Made by a program: the position numbers and the translations under genes. A stretch of 23,232 nucleotides of DNA from IMG/VR virus record IMGVR_UViG_3300027896_000232, positions 1 through 23,232 of that record; one strand, 5' to 3'. This stretch comes from a virus. The notes below the pieces were generated by a model. It did not search any database. It was given only the letters and a program-made list of their open reading frames with translations, and had not been told where the DNA came from. Positions 2,750 to 21,833 of this stretch are shown piece after piece. Position 1 is the first letter of the stretch, and each line of letters starts with the position of its first letter.

Positions 2750-2799
2750 TTGACTATCTCCGTCCCCTGCGGGCGATTTGGGAGGCCGATTATGAGTAA
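2746..2799 (+). CDS. possible 17-residue linking ORF
   Basis: ATG 2746 overlaps the previous stop (TGATG arrangement), and its TAA at 2797-2799 overlaps the start of the methyltransferase gene at 2792. The peptide is MIDYLRPLRAIWEADYE. It may be no more than a coupling peptide or chance, but it carries translation across the gap without a break. Low confidence. Confidence 0.2.
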   Translation: MIDYLRPLRAIWEADYE

Positions 2800-3274
2800 C
2801 ATCGAACTCTTTAACGAAGATTGCATGGTAGGCATGGCTCGCTATCCTGATAAGCATTTTGAACTGGCAATAGTTGATCCGCCTTATGGGATAAATACCG
2901 GAACGGTTGTGGGGGGGGCAAGCCATTTGGTCAAAGTAGGGGGGGAAAAATTATCACGCCCAAAACATACAAGGGGTTTGATGACTCCCGAACCCCTAAC
3001 AAAAGTGCGCATCCATCCCACCCAAAAGCCCGTCAAACTCTACGAATGGCTACTTCGCAACTACGCCAAGCTGGGTGATAAGATTCTTGATACTCATTTA
3101 GGCTCTGGAAGCATAGCCATTGCCTGTCATAACCTGGGGTTTGACCTCGTGGGATTTGAGATAGATAAGGATTACTTTGAGGCGGCGAGTGAGAGGTTAA
3201 GGAAACATCAAGCACAGAAGAGGATGTTTGAGCCGGGGGAAGTAAAGGCGAAAGAACAGGTGATGTTTGAATAA
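2792..3274 (+). CDS. decayed beta-class DNA methyltransferase lacking its central region
   Basis: 160 residues from ATG 2792, with GGAGG upstream. The catalytic motif DPPY is at residues 29-32. The C-terminal half has the usual HPTQKPVKLYEWLL block (75-88) and the SAM-binding motif LGSGS (103-107) followed by GFEIDKDYF. This order is that of beta-class N6-adenine/N4-cytosine methyltransferases. Family members usually have a long segment between DPPY and HPTQKP, including the target-recognition region; here only about 40 residues intervene and they do not look native. After a G8 run at 2911-2918 the expected sequence (GKPFG..., then TYKGFDDSRTPN) is readable in another frame at about 2917-3003, after which the original frame resumes at the HPTQKP block. 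The gene therefore seems to have suffered a frameshift plus an internal deletion and is probably inactive, though the frame remains open. Confidence 0.75.
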   Translation: MSNIELFNEDCMVGMARYPDKHFELAIVDPPYGINTGTVVGGASHLVKVGGEKLSRPKHTRGLMTPEPLTKVRIHPTQKPVKLYEWLLRNYAKLGDKILDTHLGSGSIAIACHNLGFDLVGFEIDKDYFEAASERLRKHQAQKRMFEPGEVKAKEQVMFE

Positions 3275-7021: not shown

Positions 7022-7226
7022 GGAAAATACTTATAAATCTCTGTGCGATGCTGTGGATTATTACAGGATCCAGACCGGCAAACGACCCGAAGTGATTAAA
7101 ATTTCTGAGGGTAATTTCAAAAAATTAAAAGATGAAGCCGAAAAATTTGGTTGGCTAATTTTCAGGAATAGCAAACTATTCCCCTGCTCAATCTATGGAG
7201 TCCCCATTGAGGTTGTAAATGGCTGA
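7014..7226 (+). CDS. hypothetical small protein between terminase genes
   Basis: 70 residues from ATG 7014, overlapping the large terminase start by eight bases. An alpha-beta mix: helix (YKSLCDAVDYYRIQTG), strand (EVIKISE), helix (NFKKLKDEAEKFGWLIF), then strands ending YGVPIEVVNG. The pattern (a ligandable loop, a long helix and a GVPIEVV end) resembles short phage proteins that accompany packaging or capsid genes, but I cannot name the family. No zinc or membrane motif. Confidence 0.6.
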   Translation: MAEENTYKSLCDAVDYYRIQTGKRPEVIKISEGNFKKLKDEAEKFGWLIFRNSKLFPCSIYGVPIEVVNG

Positions 7227-8598
7227 ATACGACATGTTTCCCTCTCCCATTCAGGATGATTTCATCGAGTCCACGACCCTCGAAAACTGCATCATGTCCC
7301 CACGAGGAGAAGGCAAAACTGAGGCCGGAATCATGGCCATGACCATCCATGCAACGCGCCAGGAGCGCAAATACAGGCCGATCCCCTGGGCAATCTTGCG
7401 TGATACATGGACAAATCTTGAGAGGACTACCCTCCAGAGCTTCCTCAACCCCCGTCCCGGCAGTTTTGCAGCGTCTATACGGCCTCGATTAGAGGTCAAA
7501 GATGGTGGCCGCAAGTTATCATTGCCCGGATATTGGGATGCCTGGCTGTTTGGCGTTGATACCGTGGCAGACCTCAACAGGTTCCAGTCCATGCAGCTCG
7601 GGGGCATGTGGTTTGAGGAGGTCGCACCGGCAGCGATGGAGGAGATCGGGTCGGGGATCAGCGAGGATACATGGTTGGTTGGTATCACATCGCTCAGGCA
7701 CCCGGTTACAACGGGACGCCGGGCGCAGATCACGATGAACTACCCGGACGAGGATCACTGGAGTTGGATAAGATTCCACGAGCAAGGGCAAGGCTCGCTG
7801 TTTAGGATTCCCCGGGGAGAGAACAAACACATTGACGACGACTATCGTAACAACATGGCTGCAGCTCTCCGCAATAAGCCCTCAATGCTGGCCAGGCTGG
7901 TGGAAGGCAGACCAGCTCAGGTTACATTAGGGGAGGCTGTTACCCCTGAGTATAAGCCGGATTTTCACAGATCCCCCGTCAACCTCAATCCATTAAAGGG
8001 CGTGAAGGTTATCCGTTGCTGGGATGGTGGCCTCAATCCAACGTGTGTATTCTGCCAGCTCACACCAAGAGGTAGACTGTTCATCCTCGATACTCTCCGG
8101 GGCGTGAATATGGGATTGACACAGTTGATTGAGTCCCAGGTTATCCCGCTCATCACTACCCGGTATAAGGACATCGAGCATTGGCAGGATATGGGCGATC
8201 CGGCGATGAACGAGCGGGAGTCAAGCGATTCAACCTCTATTGCCTCAGCACCTATCAACAAACTCCTGAGTGCAAGTTTTGAGGCTGGGGAATCATCCTG
8301 GACAGCCAGGAGAGAGGCGATTAAAGAACTACTGGGTCGTAACGTTGACGGGGAGGCGATGCTGTATCTCAGTAAGCACGAGGGCATACTGCACCGTGCC
8401 CTCAATGGAGGTTGGCACTACCATAAGGATCATACCGGACAAGTGCTGAGAGACAAGCCGGTTAAAGACCTGCACTCTCATCCGGCAGACGCCTTGACTC
8501 ACATGGTGGCAAAGATATTCAGGATTCAGCCAAAGGAGATTGTGTTACCGAAGCACAAGAACCTTGCTAAGTCGTATGTAGTGGGGATGGGGGCATGA
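7219..8598 (+). CDS. terL: terminase large subunit
   Basis: 459 residues. ATPase domain: Walker A SPRGEGKT at 27-34, Walker B LGGMWFEEV with Glu133-Glu134, and a coupling-type motif around ITMNYPDEDHW (171-181). Nuclease domain: Asp269 in CWDGG, the DMGDP aspartates near 324 and 327, and Asp424 in HPADAL, giving the acidic triad expected of the RNase H-like terminase nuclease. It translocates DNA into the procapsid and cuts the concatemer. The length is typical. It overlaps the preceding and following small genes, so it is co-translated with them. Packaging type (cos or pac) cannot be told from the sequence alone. Confidence 0.92.
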   Translation: MAEYDMFPSPIQDDFIESTTLENCIMSPRGEGKTEAGIMAMTIHATRQERKYRPIPWAILRDTWTNLERTTLQSFLNPRPGSFAASIRPRLEVKDGGRKLSLPGYWDAWLFGVDTVADLNRFQSMQLGGMWFEEVAPAAMEEIGSGISEDTWLVGITSLRHPVTTGRRAQITMNYPDEDHWSWIRFHEQGQGSLFRIPRGENKHIDDDYRNNMAAALRNKPSMLARLVEGRPAQVTLGEAVTPEYKPDFHRSPVNLNPLKGVKVIRCWDGGLNPTCVFCQLTPRGRLFILDTLRGVNMGLTQLIESQVIPLITTRYKDIEHWQDMGDPAMNERESSDSTSIASAPINKLLSASFEAGESSWTARREAIKELLGRNVDGEAMLYLSKHEGILHRALNGGWHYHKDHTGQVLRDKPVKDLHSHPADALTHMVAKIFRIQPKEIVLPKHKNLAKSYVVGMGA

Positions 8599-9104: not shown

Positions 9105-10862
9105 ATGTTTGACATAACCGTACCGACACAGATTGATCCGCAAGAACTCGAAGAGCGAACCGAGGCTGCCAACGCCTATCTCACCGAGGATGAACGCCAC
9201 TTCGTTAATTATGCCCTGGACTGTCTGGATGAGAGCAAAAAGGCTCATAAGAAAATCCGTGACCTCCAGAACGAGTGCTGGGATGCCTACAACAACGAGA
9301 TGAACTTCAGCGCAAAAGAAGAGTGGCAGGCAAAGATCAGCATTAACAAACCCTTCTCCACCGTTCAGAACGCCAAAAGTGTAATCCGTAAAGCCGTGGT
9401 AGAATCCCCGGATTTCTTCACTGTTGAGAAAACCGCAGGTGGCGATCCGCTCATTGCCGACTTTATCGGGAAGTCGCTTAAATACTGGATGGAGACGGGC
9501 AGGGGTGACATCACCGTTGCGATTCCCGATGCCTGCGAAATGGGGTTTGCCGTTGGCATGTCAATGGAGATGATACCAACGTGGAATGAAAAAGGCGGGT
9601 TCCGGTGGGTGCTGGTTGAGCCGTGGAAGGTTCACCGTGATCCCGATGCTCTGCCCCATGATCCCTATAGTGGCAACTACTGGATTCATCAGGAGTGGCT
9701 TGACCTGTGGGTGCTGAAAGAGTTTGAGAAGAAGGGGATTTATAGGGATGTTGAACGGGTAGAAAACGGAACTACGGACGAGAGCGAGGCCCATAAGAAA
9801 ACCCGAAAGAATCAGACCTGGGAGAGAAGTCAATACCGGAAATCAGTGATGGTTAATGAGTTCTGGGGTGTGGTGCTTGACAAGAAAGGAAACTTGCTGC
9901 TCCCCGATGCAACCTATACCGTAGCCGGTAACTTCGTCATAGCCGATCCCAAACCCACTCCCTACCCAAACCTCAGATGGCCGGGAGTATCGTTTTCACC
10001 CTTGCCTCATATTCTCCGCAATCCAGGGAGGGGGCTGATCGAAGGAGTGCTCAGGCTCTGGTATCTCATCAATAACATGCTGTGCCTTCATGTAGATGAT
10101 CTGTCGTGGTTCATTAACGGTATCAAGCAGATTGATCTCAACATGCTCGTCGAAGCGCCGGAAAACGGATTGACCCCCGGCTGCGAACTCTATCTCAAAC
10201 CCGGTGCCGTTGGTGATGCGGTTAAGTGGATTCAGAGCAGGGACAAGACTGGCGATGTTTTAGCTAACCAGCAATTCTTACGGCAGTTGTGGGAAGAAGG
10301 GACATTTATTCCCGATATTATCAAGGGATTGCCGGGCAGTCGTTCTCAAGTAACGCTCGGCGAGCTTGAGATGCAGGCAACTCAGGCAATGGGTGTAGCT
10401 GACAGTATAGCGAAGGATGCCGAACAAGGCATTAAGTTAGCTCTCTGGGCAGCTCAGGAAGTTATTACCATGAACTGGGATATGAAAGACAAGCCCAGTA
10501 TCGCCGACGTCATGGGTATGGAGATTCCACCGTTATTTCTGGCAAGCCTCGAAGAGAAGAAAAACTTTCTGCGGGATCATGCAATCATCAAGGTTAGTGG
10601 TGTCTCACAATTAGTTAAGCGCAATGATCTTCTGGATAAACTCAAAGGGTTAAAGGAGATGGCTGAATCAATGGTGTTTGGTAGATATATGGAACCCTAC
10701 AACATAGCCAAGACGTTTTCCGACACTCTCGGCATGGGGGACCGGAATCTGATCTGTACCGAGGAAGAAGCGAAACAAAGAGACGTAGAGGAAAAGAAAA
10801 AGCAAATGGCACTGGCATTGATGTCAAATCAACCGGGTCAAAAAAGTGGAGGGCAAGCATGA
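9105..10862 (+). CDS. portal protein
   Basis: 585 residues. A helical N terminus (about 18-75) is followed by WQAKISINKPFSTVQNAKS, then an IRKAVVESPDFFTVE strand-rich region, VEPWKVHRDPDALPHDP (about 170-190), a long wing region, and an extended helical C-terminal half (about 380-585) with VTLGELEMQATQAMGVADS. This layout matches P22-type/podovirus portal proteins of similar length. The portal forms the dodecameric vertex through which DNA enters and leaves and on which the terminase docks. It directly follows terminase and small accessory genes, as expected, and overlaps the next gene (ATGA). Confidence 0.82.
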   Translation: MFDITVPTQIDPQELEERTEAANAYLTEDERHFVNYALDCLDESKKAHKKIRDLQNECWDAYNNEMNFSAKEEWQAKISINKPFSTVQNAKSVIRKAVVESPDFFTVEKTAGGDPLIADFIGKSLKYWMETGRGDITVAIPDACEMGFAVGMSMEMIPTWNEKGGFRWVLVEPWKVHRDPDALPHDPYSGNYWIHQEWLDLWVLKEFEKKGIYRDVERVENGTTDESEAHKKTRKNQTWERSQYRKSVMVNEFWGVVLDKKGNLLLPDATYTVAGNFVIADPKPTPYPNLRWPGVSFSPLPHILRNPGRGLIEGVLRLWYLINNMLCLHVDDLSWFINGIKQIDLNMLVEAPENGLTPGCELYLKPGAVGDAVKWIQSRDKTGDVLANQQFLRQLWEEGTFIPDIIKGLPGSRSQVTLGELEMQATQAMGVADSIAKDAEQGIKLALWAAQEVITMNWDMKDKPSIADVMGMEIPPLFLASLEEKKNFLRDHAIIKVSGVSQLVKRNDLLDKLKGLKEMAESMVFGRYMEPYNIAKTFSDTLGMGDRNLICTEEEAKQRDVEEKKKQMALALMSNQPGQKSGGQA

Positions 10863-11332
10863 AGAAGATAAGAGAATTTATAAAATCATTGGATGGAGAG
10901 TTAAAGGCAATGGGGGTTATGGTGCTCATACTCTCGCTGGTCCTCGTTTACCGGCTGGCGTTCTGCGTTGACTGGAATGTACCGGCAACCTCTAACTTTC
11001 CTATCTGGTCCAACCAGATGAGCTTGCAGATAACATCGGGGAGTGATCGGGGTAGAATTACCATTGAAGGGAAATGCGTTACCGAAAAGATAATCGTGGA
11101 GGCACCTGATCTTTCTGGAACTCCTACCCTTACCCTTACTCTCGTTAATCAAGCAAGTCAGTCATATTGGACATGCACAACCGCACTTGCCGAAAATGCA
11201 AAAAGTGTGGTTACGGTGAGTGAACCAATCGCAGGAATTACCTCGTTGTATATTATTCGGTCAACGGCATCAACGACTGGGGAGACTATTCCTATCACTC
11301 TGAACGTAACGAAAGAAGGAGTAAGCAGATGA
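10859..11332 (+). CDS. membrane-anchored beta-rich protein after portal
   Basis: 157 residues, overlapping the portal stop and the next start. A basic amphipathic N terminus (1-17) leads to a hydrophobic segment (about 18-35: MGVMVLILSLVLVYRLAF), then a Ser/Thr-rich, beta-strand domain (about 50-155) with ITSGSDRGRITIEGK, LTLTLVNQAS and IPITLNVT. Two cysteines (Cys61, Cys97 region) could pair in the periplasm. It would sit as an N-in, C-out anchor or be exported. Similar beta domains occur in phage fibre-associated proteins, but the membrane segment is unexpected for a virion part. Family not recognised. Confidence 0.6.
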   Translation: MKKIREFIKSLDGELKAMGVMVLILSLVLVYRLAFCVDWNVPATSNFPIWSNQMSLQITSGSDRGRITIEGKCVTEKIIVEAPDLSGTPTLTLTLVNQASQSYWTCTTALAENAKSVVTVSEPIAGITSLYIIRSTASTTGETIPITLNVTKEGVSR

Positions 11333-13254
11333 ACAAAAAACTCTTCGTATGGTTGTTTCTTGTGGTATTGCTTATCCCCGTTCTGGCATATGCTCAGACG
11401 TACATTAATGGGAATAATATCACCACTGGTGGCAATATCTCCGGTGCGACCTATGGCTCTGATGCTTCGGTAAGCGATGCTGAGTTACTCTTTATCAACT
11501 CATTGTCGAGCAATGTCCAGACTCAAATAAAAAGCGCAGCAAGCTATGGTGCTCATACTTACATTGTTGATCCAACTGGTACTGCTGGTGCTGGTTCATA
11601 CACCACGATTGGCTCTGCCCTTGCCGCAATTCCAGACAAGGGGGTTTTACAATTTTATACTCCATCTGTTATTCTTCTATCCCCTGGATATTATTTTGAG
11701 CAGGTTACAATAGACAAGGGCTATATCACAATTAAAGGTATGGCGAAGGATGAGGTCACTTGGGCTTGTAATGGTTCAGGAGTAACTGGCCCGATGGTTA
11801 CTATTAATATCCTTGCTCCTCAGATAGCGAATGCAGTTGCTATTGAAGATATTACGGTACGGTTGAACAGTGATACAAACAGAGTGATGGGTGCGACTGA
11901 ATACTGGTGTTATATGGCAAATGGAGCAGCACAGCAACTAAAGCTGACCAATATCTATGCTCATGATATGGGCTTAATGCACGCCTCATGTTATGGATTT
12001 CTCAAGGCTGTTGTGCCCTCAAATGTAGGAATTTACCTTACAGATATCTATACTGAGCATCAGGGAGGTGATGATGAGGGGACTCCTGCAATCAGATACA
12101 CAACATCCAATCCTGCTATCTGGATTGAGGGTAGAGCAACTACAAAACTCTATGATTGCTACCTGCATAACATTACCATAAATTCCTACGATAATTTAGC
12201 CTCCAACACTGGTGGTCTGTACTTAAAGAATGCCTCATATATCCAGGCGGATACACTTTCAATAACAACGAATAGCAATACAAATGCCACTACAGTATAT
12301 TCGCTGAAAGTCGAGGGAACTGATGTATCTCAGATGAATAGCAGTCCGCTCTTTATTAAAAACGCTGTTCTGCACTCAGTGGGAGATGCTCTGGTAACTA
12401 CTGCCAATACCTATGTTGACTTGACTGGGGTGAAAATAAGTAATGGAACGCAGAGTATTGCCGGAAGGGTAAAGTCAGAGGCAGGACTGTACGGTAAGGG
12501 TTTAGCAGGACTGGACTCCTTCTATGACAAGCATGGATTTGATAGAACTGGCATCATACTCTGGACATCTACAGGCTCGTATACAAGTTATGGCACAAAC
12601 GGGACTTGGATAAATGATGCTAATAGTGCGTTAAATCTTACTGGTATTACCAGCGTCCCTACTTATTCATCTGATTCGACAGTTAGAACGCCTTATAGGA
12701 CTTTTAATGCTTCCAGTAGCGATACTTTGGCAACAGCAAATTATAATGATATTGCCCTGCAAACAGGGAAACTAACAGTAGGTGCGTGGGTAAATATAGC
12801 TAACGATGACATAACAAAACCATTTTTAGGGAATGTTGTGGCGGCTACAGGAGGGTTAAGTTGGGGGTTGGGAATAGATAGTTATGTAACTGATACAGTA
12901 AACTTTCAGATAAGGGGTAATTCAAATGGTTACTATTTTAGACGAAGTGCAATTAATTTGTTGAATGATTGGCACTTAATAGTTGGAGTTTGGGATGGTA
13001 CAGTTCCAACAGATACAACAGGGATGGCAATATATAGTGACGGCGTTTCTGTTTCAACAACCAGTGCTTCTACAAATGGGGCATGGGGAACAGCACTAAA
13101 AAATACTACAGCACCCATAAGAGTTGGATATGGGAACTTTAGTGGCGATACTATCCAGATGAAGATAGGTGAGTGTTTAATCATGAACAGGGAATTAACA
13201 GCAGCGGAAATACTTGCCTGGTATGAAAAAACCAGATGGTTGTATGGGAAATAG
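11329..13254 (+). CDS. fibre/spike-like protein: signal peptide, beta-helix, LamG domain
   Basis: 641 residues. Residues 1-22 are a textbook Sec signal peptide (NKK, hydrophobic core, AYA before Gln23). Next comes a tail-fibre-like segment (about 45-70: SDASVSDAELLFINSLSSNV), then a parallel beta-helix of the pectin-lyase type (about 80-385; YTTIGSALAAIPDKG, LLSPGYYFEQVTI, YITIKGM). The C-terminal part (about 420-641: KLTVGAWVNI, WHLIVGVWDG, GECLIMNRELTAAEI) is a concanavalin-A-like LamG fold. Such beta-helix plus lectin combinations bind or degrade surface polysaccharide. No catalytic residues can be assigned. The signal peptide is odd for a phage fibre, since virion proteins normally stay in the cytoplasm. 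The protein may instead be exported to the cell surface. Confidence 0.75.
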   Translation: MNKKLFVWLFLVVLLIPVLAYAQTYINGNNITTGGNISGATYGSDASVSDAELLFINSLSSNVQTQIKSAASYGAHTYIVDPTGTAGAGSYTTIGSALAAIPDKGVLQFYTPSVILLSPGYYFEQVTIDKGYITIKGMAKDEVTWACNGSGVTGPMVTINILAPQIANAVAIEDITVRLNSDTNRVMGATEYWCYMANGAAQQLKLTNIYAHDMGLMHASCYGFLKAVVPSNVGIYLTDIYTEHQGGDDEGTPAIRYTTSNPAIWIEGRATTKLYDCYLHNITINSYDNLASNTGGLYLKNASYIQADTLSITTNSNTNATTVYSLKVEGTDVSQMNSSPLFIKNAVLHSVGDALVTTANTYVDLTGVKISNGTQSIAGRVKSEAGLYGKGLAGLDSFYDKHGFDRTGIILWTSTGSYTSYGTNGTWINDANSALNLTGITSVPTYSSDSTVRTPYRTFNASSSDTLATANYNDIALQTGKLTVGAWVNIANDDITKPFLGNVVAATGGLSWGLGIDSYVTDTVNFQIRGNSNGYYFRRSAINLLNDWHLIVGVWDGTVPTDTTGMAIYSDGVSVSTTSASTNGAWGTALKNTTAPIRVGYGNFSGDTIQMKIGECLIMNRELTAAEILAWYEKTRWLYGK

Positions 13255-13343: not shown

Positions 13344-13511
13344 ATGAACACAGATACAAAAACGACAATCACGGGAATAGTAACGGGGGTGCTGACATTG
13401 CTGGTTCAGTTGAACATCCTGAGCCTGACACCGGAGACGGTAACGACTCTGAGCGTTGCCATTATCACTCTTGGCACAATGGTACTGGCATATTTTACGA
13501 ATAAGAAGTAG
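13344..13511 (+). CDS. holin-like protein with two membrane segments
   Basis: 55 residues with an excellent ribosome binding site (AAGGAGGT, 13332-13339). Polar start (NTDTKTT), first hydrophobic helix (about 8-27: ITGIVTGVLTLLVQLNIL), a short LTPETVTT turn, second hydrophobic helix (about 34-51: LSVAIITLGTMVLAYF) and a short lysine tail (TNKK). Two helices, a polar turn and a charged C terminus make the class II holin layout. It lies three bases upstream of the endolysin gene. Holins form the inner-membrane lesion that releases the endolysin. Confidence 0.65.
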   Translation: MNTDTKTTITGIVTGVLTLLVQLNILSLTPETVTTLSVAIITLGTMVLAYFTNKK

Positions 13512-13514
13512 GCA

Positions 13515-13880
13515 ATGGGCGACATCGGGAAGTATCTCAGAGAAGCAGAAATGACCTGCAAGTGCGGGTGTGGCTTCTGCGATGTTGACCCCATGCTGAG
13601 TAACACATTCGATTGGATTCGGTTGTGGTATGGAAAACCCCTGATTGTGAGTTCCGGTTGCCGGTGTGAGAAATACAACAAAGAACAAGGTGGGGAAGAA
13701 AACTCAGCCCACCTCAGAGGTAAGGCGGTTGATATTCTGATAAACAATACTCATGACCGTTTCATCATTGATAAGCTCGCTAAAGAGTGCGGGGTAAAGA
13801 GAATTGGCAAAGGCAAGGGGTTTATCCACATAGATGTAGATGATTCCCTTCCGCAAGAAGTGGAGTGGTTATACACATGA
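13515..13880 (+). CDS. endolysin, M15-family zinc peptidase
   Basis: 121 residues. Core pattern of the M15 (D-Ala-D-Ala carboxypeptidase-like) family: SSGCRCEKYN at 46-55, SAHLRGKAVDI at 64-74 with zinc ligands His66 and Asp73, and FIHIDVD at 103-109 with His105. The family cuts cell-wall peptide cross-links, and single-domain M15 endolysins of this size are common in phages of Gram-negative bacteria. The N-terminal CKCGCGFC cluster is often present in this subfamily. No signal peptide, so release would depend on the holin encoded just upstream. Confidence 0.85.
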   Translation: MGDIGKYLREAEMTCKCGCGFCDVDPMLSNTFDWIRLWYGKPLIVSSGCRCEKYNKEQGGEENSAHLRGKAVDILINNTHDRFIIDKLAKECGVKRIGKGKGFIHIDVDDSLPQEVEWLYT

Positions 13881-14092
13881 CCGGTCTCCCAGGTGAGGGT
13901 TACGCAGCACTGGTAGGAAAGATTATTGATATTGTCAATAACCACGCAGATGACCCTATGTGCCAGTTCAAGGATAAGTTAGAGATCGAGAAGCACGGTC
14001 AGGAAGCGATTAACCAGATAAGGAGTGCAAAGACACAGGATGAGGCGGATCGGGCTTTGGAGGAGTTCGTAAAATGGCTAACCGACTTCTAA
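13877..14092 (+). CDS. hypothetical helical protein in the lysis cassette
   Basis: 71 residues from ATG 13877, overlapping the endolysin stop (ATGA); an upstream in-frame GTG at 13865 is possible but would overlap more. All-helical and charged: GYAALVGKIIDIVNNHADDP, a middle DKLEIEKHGQEAINQIR helix and EADRALEEFVKWL. It overlaps the lipoprotein gene by 19 bases. No membrane segment or motif. Role in lysis is not supported beyond its position. Confidence 0.6.
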   Translation: MTGLPGEGYAALVGKIIDIVNNHADDPMCQFKDKLEIEKHGQEAINQIRSAKTQDEADRALEEFVKWLTDF

Positions 14093-14277
14093 TTATTGTA
14101 TTTCTTGCCTTCCTTTCCGGTTGCGCCACCTGTCCCCCTTGCCCACCCTGCAAAGAACCGCTACCGGCAGGCTACAGGGTGATAAAGGAAAGCACGTATT
14201 TTGAGTTAATGGGAACGGCGGCGAAGCTCAAGGGGGAGCTGCAGGATTGCCTGAAGGATAGGAAAGGGGCAAAATGA
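14074..14277 (+). CDS. small lipoprotein, probable outer-membrane spanin
   Basis: 67 residues. The signal and lipobox are clear: ANRLLIIVFLAFLSGC, with LSGC giving the lipidated Cys at residue 17. A Cys/Pro-rich stretch follows (ATCPPCPPCKEPLP), then a short helix (FELMGTAAKLKGELQDCLK). Size, lipobox and proline-rich neck are typical of Rz1-type o-spanins. The next gene, coupled by ATGA, encodes a membrane protein with a coiled coil and is the likely partner. Pairs of this kind fuse the inner and outer membranes at the end of lysis in Gram-negative hosts. Confidence 0.6.
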   Translation: MANRLLIIVFLAFLSGCATCPPCPPCKEPLPAGYRVIKESTYFELMGTAAKLKGELQDCLKDRKGAK

Positions 14278-16179: not shown

Positions 16180-17151
16180 ATGGCCGCAGGAACACTCACA
16201 TGGAAATATGACATTACAGATAATGTCATGTTGAATCACACGCTTTCGAAGGATATTCGAAGAGCGTCAATAGCCGAGTGCGTGATCTTTCAACACGCAC
16301 GTATCGAACCCGGCTACGGAAAGAAGAAAGGCGAATCGGTAACGATTCAGCGGGTCAGGGCACTTACTGAACCCGATACCGCAGTGATCGGAGAAGAGGA
16401 CGATATTCCTCTCGATGAGTTTGCTATTTCGACACGAACGATTGTGCCGGAAGAGTTGGGGCGTGCACTGAAGTACACCGATCTCATGAACGAACTCAAT
16501 AACTTCGACATCGAGCAACCAATCCAGCAGGCGTTGAAAGACCAGCAAAAGCTGTGCCTGGATACACTGGCTGCCGCAGCTCTGAAGCGGGCGTATGTCT
16601 GTTTCATTCCCACCAGCGATACCGGCGGGACATGGGACGTGGAAGCTATACCCAGAACCCAGGCAACCGCAAACCTGACCGCCGAACATTGCGGGTTAAT
16701 CAGGGATGAGTTGTTTGGTAAATACCTGGCACCGATGATCGGTGGAGATCATTACGTCGGGCTGGGATCAACCAAGGCATTGAGAGGAATCAAGGAAAGT
16801 CCGCTCTTTGTCACCTGGATGCAGTATTTGCAGAAGGGCATGGTTCTTTATCGGTCTGAAGTCGGAACGATTGAGAATATCCGCTGGGTTGAAGTCAACC
16901 ACAGCAAGGCTCTTTCCGGCCAGGGAAGTTTTGGCGGAGTGGGCTTAAACAGTGTTCTCGGTGAGTTCATCGTATTTGGCAAGGATGCCATTGCCTGTGC
17001 GGAAGTTATTACTCCGCACCTGAGAGCTGAACTGGCTGCAAAGTTCGGAAGACTCAAGGCTATTGCCTGGTACGGGATGCTCAGAATTGAACCGGTCTGG
17101 AACAATGCAAACGTCGGTGAGACTAACATCGTACGTGGCACATCTTCGTAG
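16180..17151 (+). CDS. N4-gp56 family major capsid protein
   Basis: 323 residues, a few bases after the scaffold stop, with AGGAGG before the ATG. Sequence pattern of N4-gp56-type capsids: SVTIQRVRALTEPDTAVIGE near residues 49-68, ISTRTIVPEELGRALKYTDL (about 86-105), a helical LKDQQKLCLDTLAAAALKRA, GGDHYVGLGSTKALRGI near 187-203, and a C-terminal KFGRLKAIAWYGMLRIEPVW. The HK97-type fold is expected; the protein forms the icosahedral shell. It matches its context: preceded by scaffold, followed by decoration-like genes. Confidence 0.82.
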   Translation: MAAGTLTWKYDITDNVMLNHTLSKDIRRASIAECVIFQHARIEPGYGKKKGESVTIQRVRALTEPDTAVIGEEDDIPLDEFAISTRTIVPEELGRALKYTDLMNELNNFDIEQPIQQALKDQQKLCLDTLAAAALKRAYVCFIPTSDTGGTWDVEAIPRTQATANLTAEHCGLIRDELFGKYLAPMIGGDHYVGLGSTKALRGIKESPLFVTWMQYLQKGMVLYRSEVGTIENIRWVEVNHSKALSGQGSFGGVGLNSVLGEFIVFGKDAIACAEVITPHLRAELAAKFGRLKAIAWYGMLRIEPVWNNANVGETNIVRGTSS

Positions 17152-17166
17152 AAAGGAGAGGATAAC

Positions 17167-17652
17167 ATGAGTACATACAAAAACAATATTCCTCTTCCGT
17201 TCCATAGCAGGATTGCCGCGGCTGATAACGTTGTGCCTTACAACGGCTATGCCATTCTCGGCGGTGCAGCGGCAGATATTCTCGGTGCTTTCTATGCACC
17301 GTTCAAATGCCGGATAAAGAGAGCAGGTCTGCTCATTACCGAAACGGTGGCTGCTGCTACTACTGCTCCAGTATTCCACTTTGACAAAGAGGATGCAGGA
17401 ACCGCACCGACATCAGATGGAGATGTGGCGATTATTACCGTGCCCAATGCAATGGCAGCCGGTTATTTCGTGTATGACGATTACCCCATGACCACAAGGA
17501 TTAATTTCGAGCCTGGGGAATGGATACTCGTCGAGATGCACACGGATGCTGCTCATACGGCAACGGTAGCCGGGAAGGTTATTCCTTTCCTCATCGTCGA
17601 AGAAGTGCCGGAAGTGGCTGACAACATCACGACAATGGTTGAAACCGCATAA
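17167..17652 (+). CDS. decoration-like protein, paralogue 1
   Basis: 161 residues. It starts MSTYK and ends EEVPEVADNITTMVETA, the same frame as the next gene. Beta-rich with a YAPFKCRIKRAGLLI segment near residues 43-57 and YPMTTRINFEPGEWILVEM near 102-120. It and the next protein clearly arose by tandem duplication. Position right after the capsid gene suggests head decoration or fibre proteins. No named family; no cysteine-rich or membrane features. Confidence 0.6.
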   Translation: MSTYKNNIPLPFHSRIAAADNVVPYNGYAILGGAAADILGAFYAPFKCRIKRAGLLITETVAAATTAPVFHFDKEDAGTAPTSDGDVAIITVPNAMAAGYFVYDDYPMTTRINFEPGEWILVEMHTDAAHTATVAGKVIPFLIVEEVPEVADNITTMVETA

Positions 17653-17672: not shown

Positions 17673-18143
17673 ATGTCAACATACAAAACAGATATGCTTC
17701 TTCCCATCAATCCGAATGTCAACTGTGGATTTGGCGGTTACGATATTTCGGCAGGAACGGAGCATGATACCGTGGCGGTCTTTTTCATTCCTTTCAAGTG
17801 CAGGATGAAACGGGTTGGAATGATCGTCAATACGGCGTTCACCGGAGCAGCGACATTCAAGTTTGACAAGGAGACTGTTGGAACAGAATCAGGTTCCGGG
17901 GCAGGCGCAACAGCAGCGAAAATCGTGGGGAATGTAATCATTCCGAGTGGCACGGCTGCTGGCAAAATGGTTTACGATGCCTACCCCATGACCACAAGGA
18001 TCGTAGCTGAGCCGGGGCAATGGATAGTGGTAACACTCGATTCAGATCCAACAGGACTGGTCGGGATCGCTCAACCTGTTTTAATCGTCGAAGAGGTGCC
18101 GGAGGTTGCAGGAAACCTTACCGGCATGCTTGAGACAGCATAA
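17673..18143 (+). CDS. decoration-like protein, paralogue 2
   Basis: 156 residues with a strong ribosome binding site (AAAGGAGG). Shares MSTYK at the start, FIPFKCRMKRVGMIV near residues 36-50, FKFDKE, YPMTTRIVAEPGQWIVVTL, and LIVEEVPEVAGNLTGMLETA with its upstream neighbour. The duplicated pair may give two related surface proteins or fill distinct positions on the capsid. The next gene starts 13 bases downstream. Confidence 0.6.
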   Translation: MSTYKTDMLLPINPNVNCGFGGYDISAGTEHDTVAVFFIPFKCRMKRVGMIVNTAFTGAATFKFDKETVGTESGSGAGATAAKIVGNVIIPSGTAAGKMVYDAYPMTTRIVAEPGQWIVVTLDSDPTGLVGIAQPVLIVEEVPEVAGNLTGMLETA

Positions 18144-18156
18144 GGAGGAAAAAGAT

Positions 18157-18612
18157 ATGAGAAAAAAGATCGCAACACTTTTAGTTTTGCTGCTCATTGT
18201 GTGGATGATCGCACCGGCGATTGTAGCACTGGCGGCAAACCTGGGGGCTTCTGACCTCACCGTTACGATAGACAAGAAACAAATCATCGGTGGGAAGAAG
18301 TTTAATGACATTACCGTAAAGGTAAACAATGGTACTAAAACGTACCCAAGCGGAGGAATAGCACAACCAACTGCCGCTCAATGTGGGATGGTTAGTTCGG
18401 TTACTCAGTTGATTGTAACTGATACCACTTCTAAAATTACTTCGGGTATATCGGGTAATGAAATTAAGTGGGATAAGACCAATAGTAAGTTGATGATTTA
18501 CATTAACTGCCCGGATGGAACATTTAACCAGATGGGAACGAATGGAGCAGCGGCTTACACAACCATCAATACTAATCAACAGTTATTCCGAGGTCAGGCA
18601 CAGGGTTGGTAA
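18157..18612 (+). CDS. signal-peptide-bearing decoration-like protein
   Basis: 151 residues from ATG 18157 with TAAGGAGG; longer in-frame readings overlap the previous gene and are rejected. Residues 1-26 form a Sec signal peptide (RKKIATLLVLLLIVWM, cut after ALA at 26). The mature part (NLGASDLTVTIDKKQIIGGK, then NDITVKVNNGTKTYPSGGIA, IVTDTTSKITSGISGNEIKW) is beta-rich and resembles the small decoration or head-fibre-like proteins that follow capsid genes in some phages, which as I recall lack a signal. This is a family-level impression, not a secure assignment. Confidence 0.6.
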   Translation: MRKKIATLLVLLLIVWMIAPAIVALAANLGASDLTVTIDKKQIIGGKKFNDITVKVNNGTKTYPSGGIAQPTAAQCGMVSSVTQLIVTDTTSKITSGISGNEIKWDKTNSKLMIYINCPDGTFNQMGTNGAAAYTTINTNQQLFRGQAQGW

Positions 18613-18621
18613 CCATTAATT

Positions 18622-18650
18622 GAGAGGGGAGGCTTCGGCTTCCCCTTCTC
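18622..18650 (+). other. stable hairpin with a UUCG tetraloop
   Basis: GAGAGGGGAGGC (18622-18633) faces GCTTCCCCTTCTC (18638-18650) across TTCG (18634-18637), a particularly stable tetraloop in RNA. One bulge or mismatch interrupts the stem. No T-run follows. It lies between the signal-peptide gene and the next gene's binding site, so it is likely a processing or 3'-end protecting element rather than a terminator. Confidence 0.45.
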
Positions 18651-18669
18651 ACCCAAAAGGAGGACATGT

Positions 18670-18966
18670 ATGGCACAGAAAGTCAGATTAGGAGATCGTG
18701 AAGTAACCATCATCAGATATTTCACGCAGAAGATGAAGATCATCTACGAGAAGGCCAATGGGATATTCGTCAGGGCTGATGGCAGCGCCATTGATGAATC
18801 TGATCTCGCCATCATAGCCGAACCCCACAAGACAAGGGCAGCCAAACAGGTAAGCGGCAAGGTTGATATTCCAGAAGATCCACCCGAACCCGAGCCAGAA
18901 GTTGAGGGGTATGCTGAACCGCCTACGTCAAAAAAGGGAGTAGGAAGACCGAAGAGGAATAGGTAA
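18670..18966 (+). CDS. hypothetical protein with an acidic/basic tail
   Basis: 98 residues from ATG 18670 with AAAGGAGGA. The N-terminal half (QKVRLGDREVTIIRYFTQKM, then YEKANGIFVRADGSAID) is alpha-beta; the rest is a Pro/Glu-rich stretch (about 68-84: PEDPPEPEPEVEG) and a basic end (KKGVGRPKRNR) like an AT-hook-type GRPKR motif. Unknown; the tail could contact DNA in the head. Confidence 0.55.
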   Translation: MAQKVRLGDREVTIIRYFTQKMKIIYEKANGIFVRADGSAIDESDLAIIAEPHKTRAAKQVSGKVDIPEDPPEPEPEVEGYAEPPTSKKGVGRPKRNR

Positions 18967-19070
18967 TGGGTTCTGGAGTTAAGCGTTGCCCCAAATGCGG
19001 GGAGATCTATCTGGTTAATCCCTGGATAGATGGAGTTTGCCCCAAATGCGGGGGAAAGGGGAATAAATGA
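18966..19070 (+). CDS. 34-residue zinc ribbon
   Basis: ATG 18966 overlaps the preceding stop. Two CPKCG knuckles (residues 8-12 and 25-29) spaced by 12 residues form a complete four-cysteine zinc ribbon, with KRCPKCGEIYLV and VCPKCGGKGNK around them. It ends within the overlap with the next gene (ATGA). Small zinc ribbons recur through this window; this one sits among structural genes. The intact motif makes a real gene likely. Confidence 0.6.
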   Translation: MGSGVKRCPKCGEIYLVNPWIDGVCPKCGGKGNK

Positions 19071-19345
19071 AAAAGACAGCACCCGAATCAGTAGTAGAAG
19101 AAAAACCTCATGCTTCAATGACCATTGATTGCCCGAAGGGTGCAAAGATGGATTTTGACACTGGGGATTGTGAGGTTGACGAGGAAATGACGATTACCGT
19201 AACGGGTAGAGTCAAATCAATCCGGTATGATGAATATGGAAAGAATGTGCAACTTGAACCGACAAAAGTCAGTGCGTCTTACGACAAGGTCAAAGGCGGG
19301 ATGAAAGATGATCTGAAGGAACTCCGAAAATCAAGGACGGTATAA
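19067..19345 (+). CDS. hypothetical protein in the head-completion region
   Basis: 92 residues from ATG 19067. An acidic N terminus (PESVVEEKPH) leads to a beta-rich core (ASMTIDCPKGAKMDFDTGDC, then EMTITVTGRVKSIRYDEYG, then VQLEPTKVSASYD) and a charged C terminus. Two cysteines flank the core. The next gene follows directly. No family assignment; likely a minor structural protein by context. Confidence 0.55.
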   Translation: MKKTAPESVVEEKPHASMTIDCPKGAKMDFDTGDCEVDEEMTITVTGRVKSIRYDEYGKNVQLEPTKVSASYDKVKGGMKDDLKELRKSRTV

Positions 19346-20197
19346 ATGGCTAACTGGGATACGGGAAAAGAGATTCTTTATTACGTCCTGCTCAAGCTCA
19401 AGGATTACGAGCGGATCAGGCAGGAAGAAGCCAAACTCATTATCCAGGGTATCTACTGGGAACTGCTCATGGAGTTCCCCTGGTTGTTTGCTCTGAAAGA
19501 TCCGCCGGGTATTATCAATACCGTTGCCGAAGTAACCGGGACCGCAACCATTACTAAGGGCAGCGCAACCGTAACTCTCGGTGCAGCCATCGCTACCACT
19601 ATGGCTGGCCGGAAATTCTACATTGATAACGAGTTCGTACCCTACCGGATTTTAACCCATACCGCAGGTACGGTTACGCTCACCCTCGATGCTACCTACA
19701 AGGAAGATAGTGTTACGGCAGGAGCCTTTACCATCTTTCAGGACGAATACAGTCTGGCCTCAGATTGCGCCAAACCCTGGCGGTTCTGGTTCAGGAATTT
19801 GCCTAACGCCAGCATTAATTTCATCGGTGGCGGGGAGATGCAGGCCCGGTTCCCACAGATGTCAAGAGGCGGTATCTCAGTCTATGAAGTCGCACTCATA
19901 AAAGATAATAAGGTAAAGATAAAATCACCGCCAACGGATGCCGTTACCATCGAATACGAATACACTCAGAGACAGTCAGCCCTGACCTTCGACGGCGTGG
20001 TCGCAAACGATACGCCTGTATTTCCACAGGACACCCGCAAAGTCATAGCTGACTGTGCCTTGTTAGAAATGCTGACACCGAAGGACGTTAAGGAAATCGG
20101 GTTGCCTGACCGGGACAAGTTATTGGGCAGGATAAAAATAACCTACATGGCGAAGGATAGGGTCAAGGCATGGATACCGGACAGCAGGAGAATGTGA
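19346..20197 (+). CDS. head-to-tail adaptor-like protein
   Basis: 283 residues, ATG right after the previous stop. The N-terminal helices (KEILYYVLLKLKDYERIRQE, then YWELLMEFPWLFALKDPPG) are interrupted by a beta insert (about 63-120: TGTATITKGSATVTLGAAIA, FYIDNEFVPYRILTHTAG), then LASDCAKPWRFWFRNL and a C-terminal helical region with FPQDTRKVIADCALLEML. This alternation recalls the podovirus gp4-like and related adaptor proteins that attach to the portal. Position after capsid/decoration genes agrees. The assignment is by pattern. Confidence 0.45.
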   Translation: MANWDTGKEILYYVLLKLKDYERIRQEEAKLIIQGIYWELLMEFPWLFALKDPPGIINTVAEVTGTATITKGSATVTLGAAIATTMAGRKFYIDNEFVPYRILTHTAGTVTLTLDATYKEDSVTAGAFTIFQDEYSLASDCAKPWRFWFRNLPNASINFIGGGEMQARFPQMSRGGISVYEVALIKDNKVKIKSPPTDAVTIEYEYTQRQSALTFDGVVANDTPVFPQDTRKVIADCALLEMLTPKDVKEIGLPDRDKLLGRIKITYMAKDRVKAWIPDSRRM

Positions 20198-20206
20198 GGT
20201 GAGAAT

Positions 20207-20833
20207 ATGATCGCAGAATTAATGGGGGCAATAGGTGCAGCCAGTAGTATAGGAAGTTCACTGTTCGGTTCTGGTGGAGAAACGAAAATCCAGTATCCAC
20301 CCGGAACCATGTATGGTGTCCGCACCCTCAAGGCTCAATCTTCCCCTATCCTTCAGGGTAGAATGACATGGTTGGATATTCTCAACATGAAACGGATGAG
20401 GGATACTGCTGAAAAAGCAAGACGATCAGGTGAGGAATCGCTGTTGAGAACTGCTGGCCGGACTGGTTCTTCTGGCCCAGAAGTGGCAAGCGGGTTGCGT
20501 TCAATAAATGAACAGGTCGCTCCTATGACCATCGGCGCACTCAATGACTGGCTGATGAATCGTTATAATCAGGCCATCAACATGGCTTCACAGCTTGCAC
20601 GGGGAACGAATTCCCCTGTTGTTTCTCAAACACAGCCGAGCGATGCTTCAAGGGCAATGAGTCAGGTAGGGCAAATAGGGGGGGGCATAGCGGGTATGAA
20701 ACTCGGGCAACCTACTACACCAGCCCCATCAGTCGCAAGCGCTGCTCCTTCTATGGCTTCAACTGTTCAACCTCCACTTACCTGGGAGCAGATGCAGGAA
20801 TATTACAGACAGAGAAACTATCAAAGAGCATAA
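20207..20833 (+). CDS. putative internal virion / ejection protein
   Basis: 208 residues with binding site GAGGTGAGA. Glycine-rich hydrophobic N terminus (MGAIGAASSIGSSLFGSGG), a helical middle (MTWLDILNMKRMRDTAEKAR, then NEQVAPMTIGALNDWL, NRYNQAINMASQLARG), and a low-complexity Ala/Pro/Ser tail before a C-terminal WEQMQEYYRQRNYQ helix. Similar small proteins with Gly-rich amphipathic starts act as ejected core proteins (T7 gp14-like). Supported by size, start and gene order, not by a specific motif. Confidence 0.45.
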   Translation: MIAELMGAIGAASSIGSSLFGSGGETKIQYPPGTMYGVRTLKAQSSPILQGRMTWLDILNMKRMRDTAEKARRSGEESLLRTAGRTGSSGPEVASGLRSINEQVAPMTIGALNDWLMNRYNQAINMASQLARGTNSPVVSQTQPSDASRAMSQVGQIGGGIAGMKLGQPTTPAPSVASAAPSMASTVQPPLTWEQMQEYYRQRNYQRA

Positions 20834-20843
20834 GGAGTAAATC

Positions 20844-21833
20844 ATGCCTGTAACCTATATGCCACATGGAACTACTCAATCAACTCCTACCTTCTGGGAG
20901 AGCTTTCTACAATCCTATCAAGGCGAGCAGATACGTCAGCAGAGACTAAAAGAGCAGAAGATTGACCAACTTATAAAAATGGGTGAGCTTGCCGGTCATT
21001 ACGACGAGAACCTACAGGGCGAGCTTGCCAGGGCGTTGTCCCCGGATGTATCGGGACTGGACAGGCTCTTTGGACGGAAGGCAAGGACGATAACCCCACC
21101 GGGGAATTTCCTGACTACTGGTGAACAGCGGATGCAGACCAAGAGGGCGGAATGGGGAGCGGAGTTAGAGAAGGCAAAGACGTTGAAGGAGATGGAGATG
21201 GGTGCAAGAGAACCCAAAAGATATACCGTTGATAAGCATCTTCTTGATGAATCAGGCAACGTACTTTACACCGCACCAGAAGCAGACGAAAAATCTCTCG
21301 AATATTTTGACGTTACAGGTCCGGGAGGTGAAAAGGGAGCTTATGGAGCGGCCAAAAAGGGCAAATCAGGTCTCCTTACCTTACCACCCGGTTATAATTA
21401 TACCGGAAAACCAAGTACAGAAAAAGAATATAAACCCGAATATGACAAGATTGTCAATGCTACTGATAGAACGAAACAGGCATATTTGCTAAAGGGATCG
21501 AAGTTCCCTGACGGATGGGAATTTCTGGATACATCAGGAGAGAAGGGAACAGCACCGAAAGTAACGACTGATTCTGATGCCACAAAATATGCAGATGAAA
21601 TGATGAGAAACAGGTTCGGAAAAGGTTGGTTTGTAGATGACCCTTCAAAAATTCTGACTTGGAAAGATGAAACTGGTAAAGACGTAGAAATGGATCAACT
21701 CACATACATGAAAAAATGGCATGATCACTTCTTCCAGCAGGCAAAAGGCGCACAGCCACAGGGCGGAGGCGCACAGCCAAAAACTGACAAAGAGAAAGCC
21801 CTTGAACTTCTAAAAGCACGGGGACGACTTTAA
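20844..21833 (+). CDS. hypothetical structural protein, likely ejection-related
   Basis: 329 residues with binding site AAGGAG. The N-terminal part (ESFLQSYQGEQIRQQRLKEQ, then KIDQLIKMGELAGHYDENLQ) is charged and helical and continues into a long coiled-coil-like stretch (about 93-120: EQRMQTKRAEWGAELEKAKT). The middle is loop-rich, and the end has a duplicated AQP.GGGAQP segment. No catalytic motif. The next gene begins within its stop (TAATG). Confidence 0.5.
   Translation: MPVTYMPHGTTQSTPTFWESFLQSYQGEQIRQQRLKEQKIDQLIKMGELAGHYDENLQGELARALSPDVSGLDRLFGRKARTITPPGNFLTTGEQRMQTKRAEWGAELEKAKTLKEMEMGAREPKRYTVDKHLLDESGNVLYTAPEADEKSLEYFDVTGPGGEKGAYGAAKKGKSGLLTLPPGYNYTGKPSTEKEYKPEYDKIVNATDRTKQAYLLKGSKFPDGWEFLDTSGEKGTAPKVTTDSDATKYADEMMRNRFGKGWFVDDPSKILTWKDETGKDVEMDQLTYMKKWHDHFFQQAKGAQPQGGGAQPKTDKEKALELLKARGRL

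Follow-up and report, generated by a model that had tools for sequence, protein, structure and literature searches.

A gene in a fragment of a tailed phage encodes a fibre-type protein of 641 amino acids that begins with a complete signal peptide. The signal is constant in the family of phage proteins that share its fibre module, it is rare in ordinary fibres, and the genes concerned lie in phage structural operons. The fibres of tailed phages are usually taken to be virion parts made in the cytoplasm. Our preferred reading, held with middling confidence, is that this product is a Sec-exported, fibre-derived glycan-binding protein which is not built into virions in the cytoplasm.

The fragment is an IMG/VR virus record of 23,232 bp, and this whole stretch is called the window below. 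Because further fibre genes may lie beyond the window, any count of its fibre genes is limited. The features that matter here are all on the + strand:

7219..8598, +, terminase large subunit (tblastn to annotated terminases)
9105..10862, +, portal-type connector (phrog_332, E 6.9e-6)
10859..11332, +, 157-aa protein with a hydrophobic N-terminus, ambiguous between signal peptide and anchor; overlaps the portal stop and the fibre start
11329..13254, +, putatively exported fibre-type protein, 641 aa; open frame, AAGGAG before the ATG, ATGA overlap with the upstream gene
11329..11394, +, signal peptide, residues 1-22, predicted cut before Q23 (n, h and c regions)
11416..11529, +, fibre module, residues 30-67 (the TTGGNISGATYGSDASVSDAELLFINSLSSNVQTQ region), common to nine other phage contigs
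11551..12468, +, strand-rich middle, possibly beta-helix-like (local match to L062; predicted strands)
12745..13212, +, LamG / concanavalin A-like domain, residues 473-628 (PF13385, E 8.5e-14)
13344..14277, +, lysis genes: holin-like (by inspection), M15 endolysin, Rz1-like lipoprotein
16180..17151, +, major capsid protein (phrog_1357, E 2.4e-5)
18157..18612, +, 151-aa beta-type protein with a signal, 3' of the capsid and decoration-like genes

The fibre-type gene is thus located between the portal and the lysis genes, in the structural operon. Portal homologues also come after the terminase in the loci L005, L006 and L045-L050. Terminase ORFs are 842-873 aa long in L003 (574-3195), L046 (5074-7686) and L048 (2212-4740), versus 459-530 aa in relatives, and their inserts look intein-like by inspection. 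Searching bacterial genomes with a terminase profile gave no confirmed match. The window also holds two adjacent paralogous decoration-like proteins (17167-17652 and 17673-18143; phmmer E 5e-36 in a small set), homologous to single-copy genes 3' of the capsid gene in L046 and L049. A short ORF at 2792-3274 has a DPPYG motif and resembles a shortened DNA methyltransferase.

Start codon, signal peptide and domains

The first-pass annotation had read the protein as a Sec signal peptide (residues 1-22) followed by a tail-fibre-type segment, a beta-helix and a LamG fold. It went on to suggest surface display or secretion, with adhesion, capsule modification or receptor masking as candidate roles, or else an unusual assembly route. 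The signal peptide holds up well. The ATG at 11329 forms an ATGA overlap with the stop of the 157-aa gene, whose own start overlaps the portal stop, and AAGGAG lies 5' of this ATG. No other start with a Shine-Dalgarno sequence was found within 80 codons. The next candidates, TTG and GTG codons within the hydrophobic core and then a TTG at residue 59, all lack a Shine-Dalgarno, which makes it unlikely that translation from further downstream yields a protein without the signal. A wrong start codon was accordingly rejected.

The leader reads MNKK-LFVWLFLVVLLIPVL-AYA/Q, where the slash marks the predicted cut: a basic n-region, a hydrophobic core and a small-x-small cleavage site of the Sec/SPase I type. 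A virion tail fibre would be expected to have a signal-less, cytoplasmic N-terminus, and here the only good start comes with a complete signal. The AlphaFold model is poor overall, and the part of it that scores best is a helix at residues 3-26. No lipobox with a Cys at +1 was found in the 641-aa protein, and no outer-membrane sorting signal was seen on it. All signal calls in this work are by inspection and a home-made rule. For the 157-aa neighbour, the N-terminus is called SPI by a loose rule and gets no call by a stricter one.

Chance was considered as the origin of the signal and rejected. Shuffling the N-terminal 60 residues produces such a signal in 2.25% of trials. Of the 623 ORFs in control phage loci that reach 100 aa, 16 have one. 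All ten of the module-bearing proteins identified have it; this last point places an export signal on a fibre-type protein far from chance.

The LamG fold is firm (residues 473-628), with Laminin_G_3 scoring 52.4 bits against a cut-off of 27.6. The tail-fibre-type segment is also real and recurs in independent phage contigs, as described below. The beta-helix fared less well. No profile match was found in Pfam, PHROG, NCBIfam or PDB sequences, and what points to it is a local match to the beta-helix-like start of an L062 protein (43% over 54 aa, E 8e-4 in a 21-protein set) and strand-only secondary structure at residues about 114-350 of a model with pLDDT 36.6. The strand-rich middle may be a beta-helix, a weakly supported assignment. 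Neither this model nor that of the 151-aa protein (pLDDT 39.6) was good enough to search for similar folds. The head-spike fibre domain of gene transfer agents (NF048003) gave no match at E 0.01, and searching with the entire 641-aa protein turned up no homologue in IMG/VR, INPHARED or PDB sequences. Enrichment in cysteine, which would point to folding in the periplasm, was looked for: no difference emerged (p 0.95) in a test which left out the cysteine-rich L006 proteins.

The fibre-module family

A search with the fibre segment found the YGSD-SDAEL module in nine further independent IMG/VR contigs: L051, L052, L053 (with near-duplicate L054), L060, L062, L063, L064, L071 and L072. Identity to the window is 52-68% over 38-43 aa for L051, L052, L062, L063, L064 and L072, and 49% over a longer span for L060; L053 and L071 are weaker. 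The first module profile (A4) consisted of the window segment plus two hand-written variant rows. Profiles A5 and A7, made from real segments only, recovered the same phages.

Counting the window, a signal peptide is present at the N-terminus of all ten module-bearing proteins by eye, and of 8/10 by the strict rule. The two missed are L064 (TTG start) and L071 (SFG/Q), whose signals are clear by eye. In L052 and L053 there are alternative starts close by, every one of which yields a signal. The ten leaders are mutually dissimilar, all have the full n/h/c architecture, and most end in small-residue cleavage motifs. As a control, fibres with another repeat (TSPTLVTP) and a complete 5' end were used; a signal is found in 3 of these 69 by eye and 2 by rule (Fisher p 2e-10 and 7e-8 respectively), for a module family which is small and whose definition starts from a signal-bearing protein. 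None of five INPHARED phages reached through fibre repeats has a signal, nor does any of eight head-spike-domain proteins taken from other phages (0/8).

INPHARED searches with the signal-bearing proteins of L006, L051, L053, L062 and L072 found no full-length relative. Most gave nothing; L051, L053 and the 1022-aa protein of L006 gave short or partial matches to fibre repeats or beta-helices.

Hosts can be guessed at for some of these phages. L063 and L071 lack a Shine-Dalgarno, and SFG/Q or LYG/Q sites occur in some leaders. A Q-rule for signal peptides is described for Bacteroidota (PMC5837995), and together these features hint that some module phages infect Bacteroidota.

Cassettes and signal-less counterparts

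Runs of signal-bearing fibre-type genes are found in L006, L062, L051, L072 and L003. In the window, L006 and L062, a run of genes with hydrophobic N-termini begins by overlapping the portal stop. The window run consists of the 157-aa protein (signal or anchor) and the fibre/LamG protein. That of L006 has fibre-like, LamG-like, pectate-lyase-type beta-helix (PF12708, E 3.8e-12) and Fn3-like members, and that of L062 has small, fibre, beta-helix (PF13229, E 1.7e-23), head-spike and Fn3-like ones; the LamG-like and Fn3-like labels in both, and the fibre label in L006, are by inspection, with no family match. The L062 portal belongs to a different family, PF06381, so a single lineage does not account for the cassette. 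LamG, pectate-lyase, Beta_helix and head-spike folds typically bind or cut glycans.

Taking the module loci together with L006 and L003, 32 of 154 ORFs of at least 100 aa bear a signal, against 0/74 in portal relatives and 16/623 in controls; this contrast is partly selected, since L006 and L003 were included for signal-bearing genes seen previously. Like the 18157-18612 gene of the window, other signal-bearing proteins lie near or just 3' of the capsid gene, all placed by inspection: in L168 (13088-13597, on the L060 contig), L064 (1355-1747 and 1850-2446) and L003 (8348-9340). L003 also has an O-antigen-ligase-like gene (10255-11748; Wzy_C, PF04932, E 8.8e-24) amid its signal-bearing genes.

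Signal-less relatives had earlier been proposed as the observation that would speak against export. Relatives by fibre segment all keep the signal; relatives at the portal level carry signal-less proteins, but these are not orthologues of the 641-aa protein. In L045-L050 and L005, the slot 3' of the portal holds signal-less proteins, fibre-like plus LamG-like in L045 and (SPSxSPS)n-linker proteins in most of the others. The 151-aa protein of the window is distantly homologous to such signal-less linker proteins in L046, L049 and L050 (hhalign E 5e-5, probability 68%). Likewise, a signal-less 532-aa protein of L060 matches phrog_5939, the tail-protein family that includes the signal-bearing 455-aa protein of L062. 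Because signal-bearing and signal-less homologues both exist in these two cases, the leader looks like a swappable module on fibre-type proteins.

The linker proteins are small, with long N-terminal Ser-Pro linkers, and lie near portal and scaffold genes: L046 11895-12395 and 14757-15167, L049 13646-14089, L047 5346-5870, L050 5787-6593 and 7605-8087, and L005 6646-7380. L046 and L049 carry glycosyltransferase-like genes 3' of their capsid genes (18525-21270 and 18457-21690), so the linkers might be O-glycosylated.

Role of the signal-bearing proteins

Export of the 641-aa protein is likely, judging from its leader. According to our preferred reading of a Sec-exported glycan-binding protein, it would be synthesised late, translationally coupled to the portal gene via the 157-aa gene. 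It would cross the inner membrane by Sec, be cut at AYA/Q23 and fold in the periplasm. It would act either there or at the cell surface, or else once lysis has released it. Its ligands would be envelope or extracellular glycans, which it would bind and perhaps trim. The benefit would be receptors that are masked, or a matrix that is loosened around the lysing cell. More generally, the class would comprise fibre, beta-helix, LamG/head-spike and Fn3-like proteins with signal peptides in the structural (late) operon.

Of the other readings, the one that survives best is a virion fibre that crosses by Sec, is processed, reaches its fold in the periplasm and is added to particles only as lysis breaks the envelope open. 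The coupling to the portal gene suggests virion-linked expression, and a virion link is favoured by the canonical fibre slot together with this overlap-coupling, seen in the window, L006 and L062. In Nonlabens phage P12024L, too, the gene between the portal and an M15 peptidase is fibre-like, and it has no signal. Some signal-bearing proteins match virion families: the 455-aa protein of L062 (9959-11326) matches the NF048003 head-spike (E 8e-51) and phrog_5939 (tail protein, E 4.5e-39), and one in L003 matches Phage_depo_C below threshold (E 7e-4). We know of no precedent in tailed phages. Against this reading, nothing that follows the signal was recognisable as a dedicated virion-attachment domain, and two module contigs also carry signal-less fibre-type genes: in L060 a tail protein with head-spike and LamG domains adjoins the signal-bearing fibre, and in L064 a fibre-like gene (by inspection) accompanies the signal-bearing one. 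Their presence speaks mildly for a non-virion role. Overall we regard an exported virion fibre as unlikely.

Rather less probable still is an uncleaved anchor, by which the hydrophobic N-terminus would keep the protein attached to the infected cell's inner membrane. The 157-aa neighbour does have a longer, anchor-like N-terminus, but the window leader ends in AYA/Q and most of the ten end in cleavage motifs. That the phage acquired a bacterial gene for an exported adhesin or enzyme (a moron) is very improbable: bacteria do export tailspike-like proteins such as WceF (PMC7949094), but all ten module genes found are in virus records, amid phage genes wherever context sufficed. Of 230 pattern matches across 84,980 genomes of bacteria and archaea, none was confirmed as the module, a weak test given the 48-aa query. 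Equally improbable is an ordinary cytoplasmic fibre whose hydrophobic N-terminus serves particle assembly, which would suit the fibre-type sequence and structural-operon position but not the full n/h/c architecture of ten dissimilar leaders versus 3/69 ordinary fibres and 0/8 head-spike-domain proteins.

Exclusion lipoproteins of the T5 Llp / Cor type are exported phage proteins that can shield receptors; they are small and have a lipobox, whereas the window protein is large and SPase I-type. The L062 455-aa protein is by domain a full member of the NF048003/phrog_5939 head-spike and tail fibre proteins, of which eight other phage members examined (NF048003) are signal-less; the window protein does not match this domain. 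PblA and PblB of streptococcal prophage SM1 are phage tail-type proteins that serve as adhesins on the bacterial surface (PMC2920869); they get there via holin/lysin permeabilisation, while the module proteins each have their own Sec-type signal. WceF of Pantoea stewartii has a tailspike-like beta-helix fold and acts on biofilm glycans, but it is a bacterial gene with a Tat signal, unlike the phage-encoded, Sec-type module proteins. The tailspike TspA of the Rhodobacter gene transfer agent is proposed to act also in soluble form on the matrix after lysis (PMC13420450, preprint); it is a virion-associated baseplate spike, and the portion of the preprint consulted mentions no signal peptide, in contrast to the signal-bearing window protein. 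In the literature searched, which was covered in part, no description was found of Sec-exported fibre cassettes in tailed phages, nor of a virion-morphogenesis or envelope-masking step that takes place outside the cytoplasm.

A wider proposal is that a late cassette recurs among the tailed phages of several bacterial groups and encodes Sec-exported fibre, spike, LamG and Fn3-like proteins. Some of these would be finished in the periplasm and would join virions, or coat receptors and debris, only once the envelope breaks. We offer this as a long shot worth stating. A fibre-like annotation alone does not imply a virion protein or a host-range determinant, and the combination of module and signal is a simple marker for finding such genes. 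In some viruses, fibre-like proteins seem destined for export from the cell rather than for particles built in the cytoplasm. If this is true, fibre modules would double as secreted phage tools against envelopes, matrices or competing phages; alternatively, part of virion assembly would be possible outside the cytoplasm.
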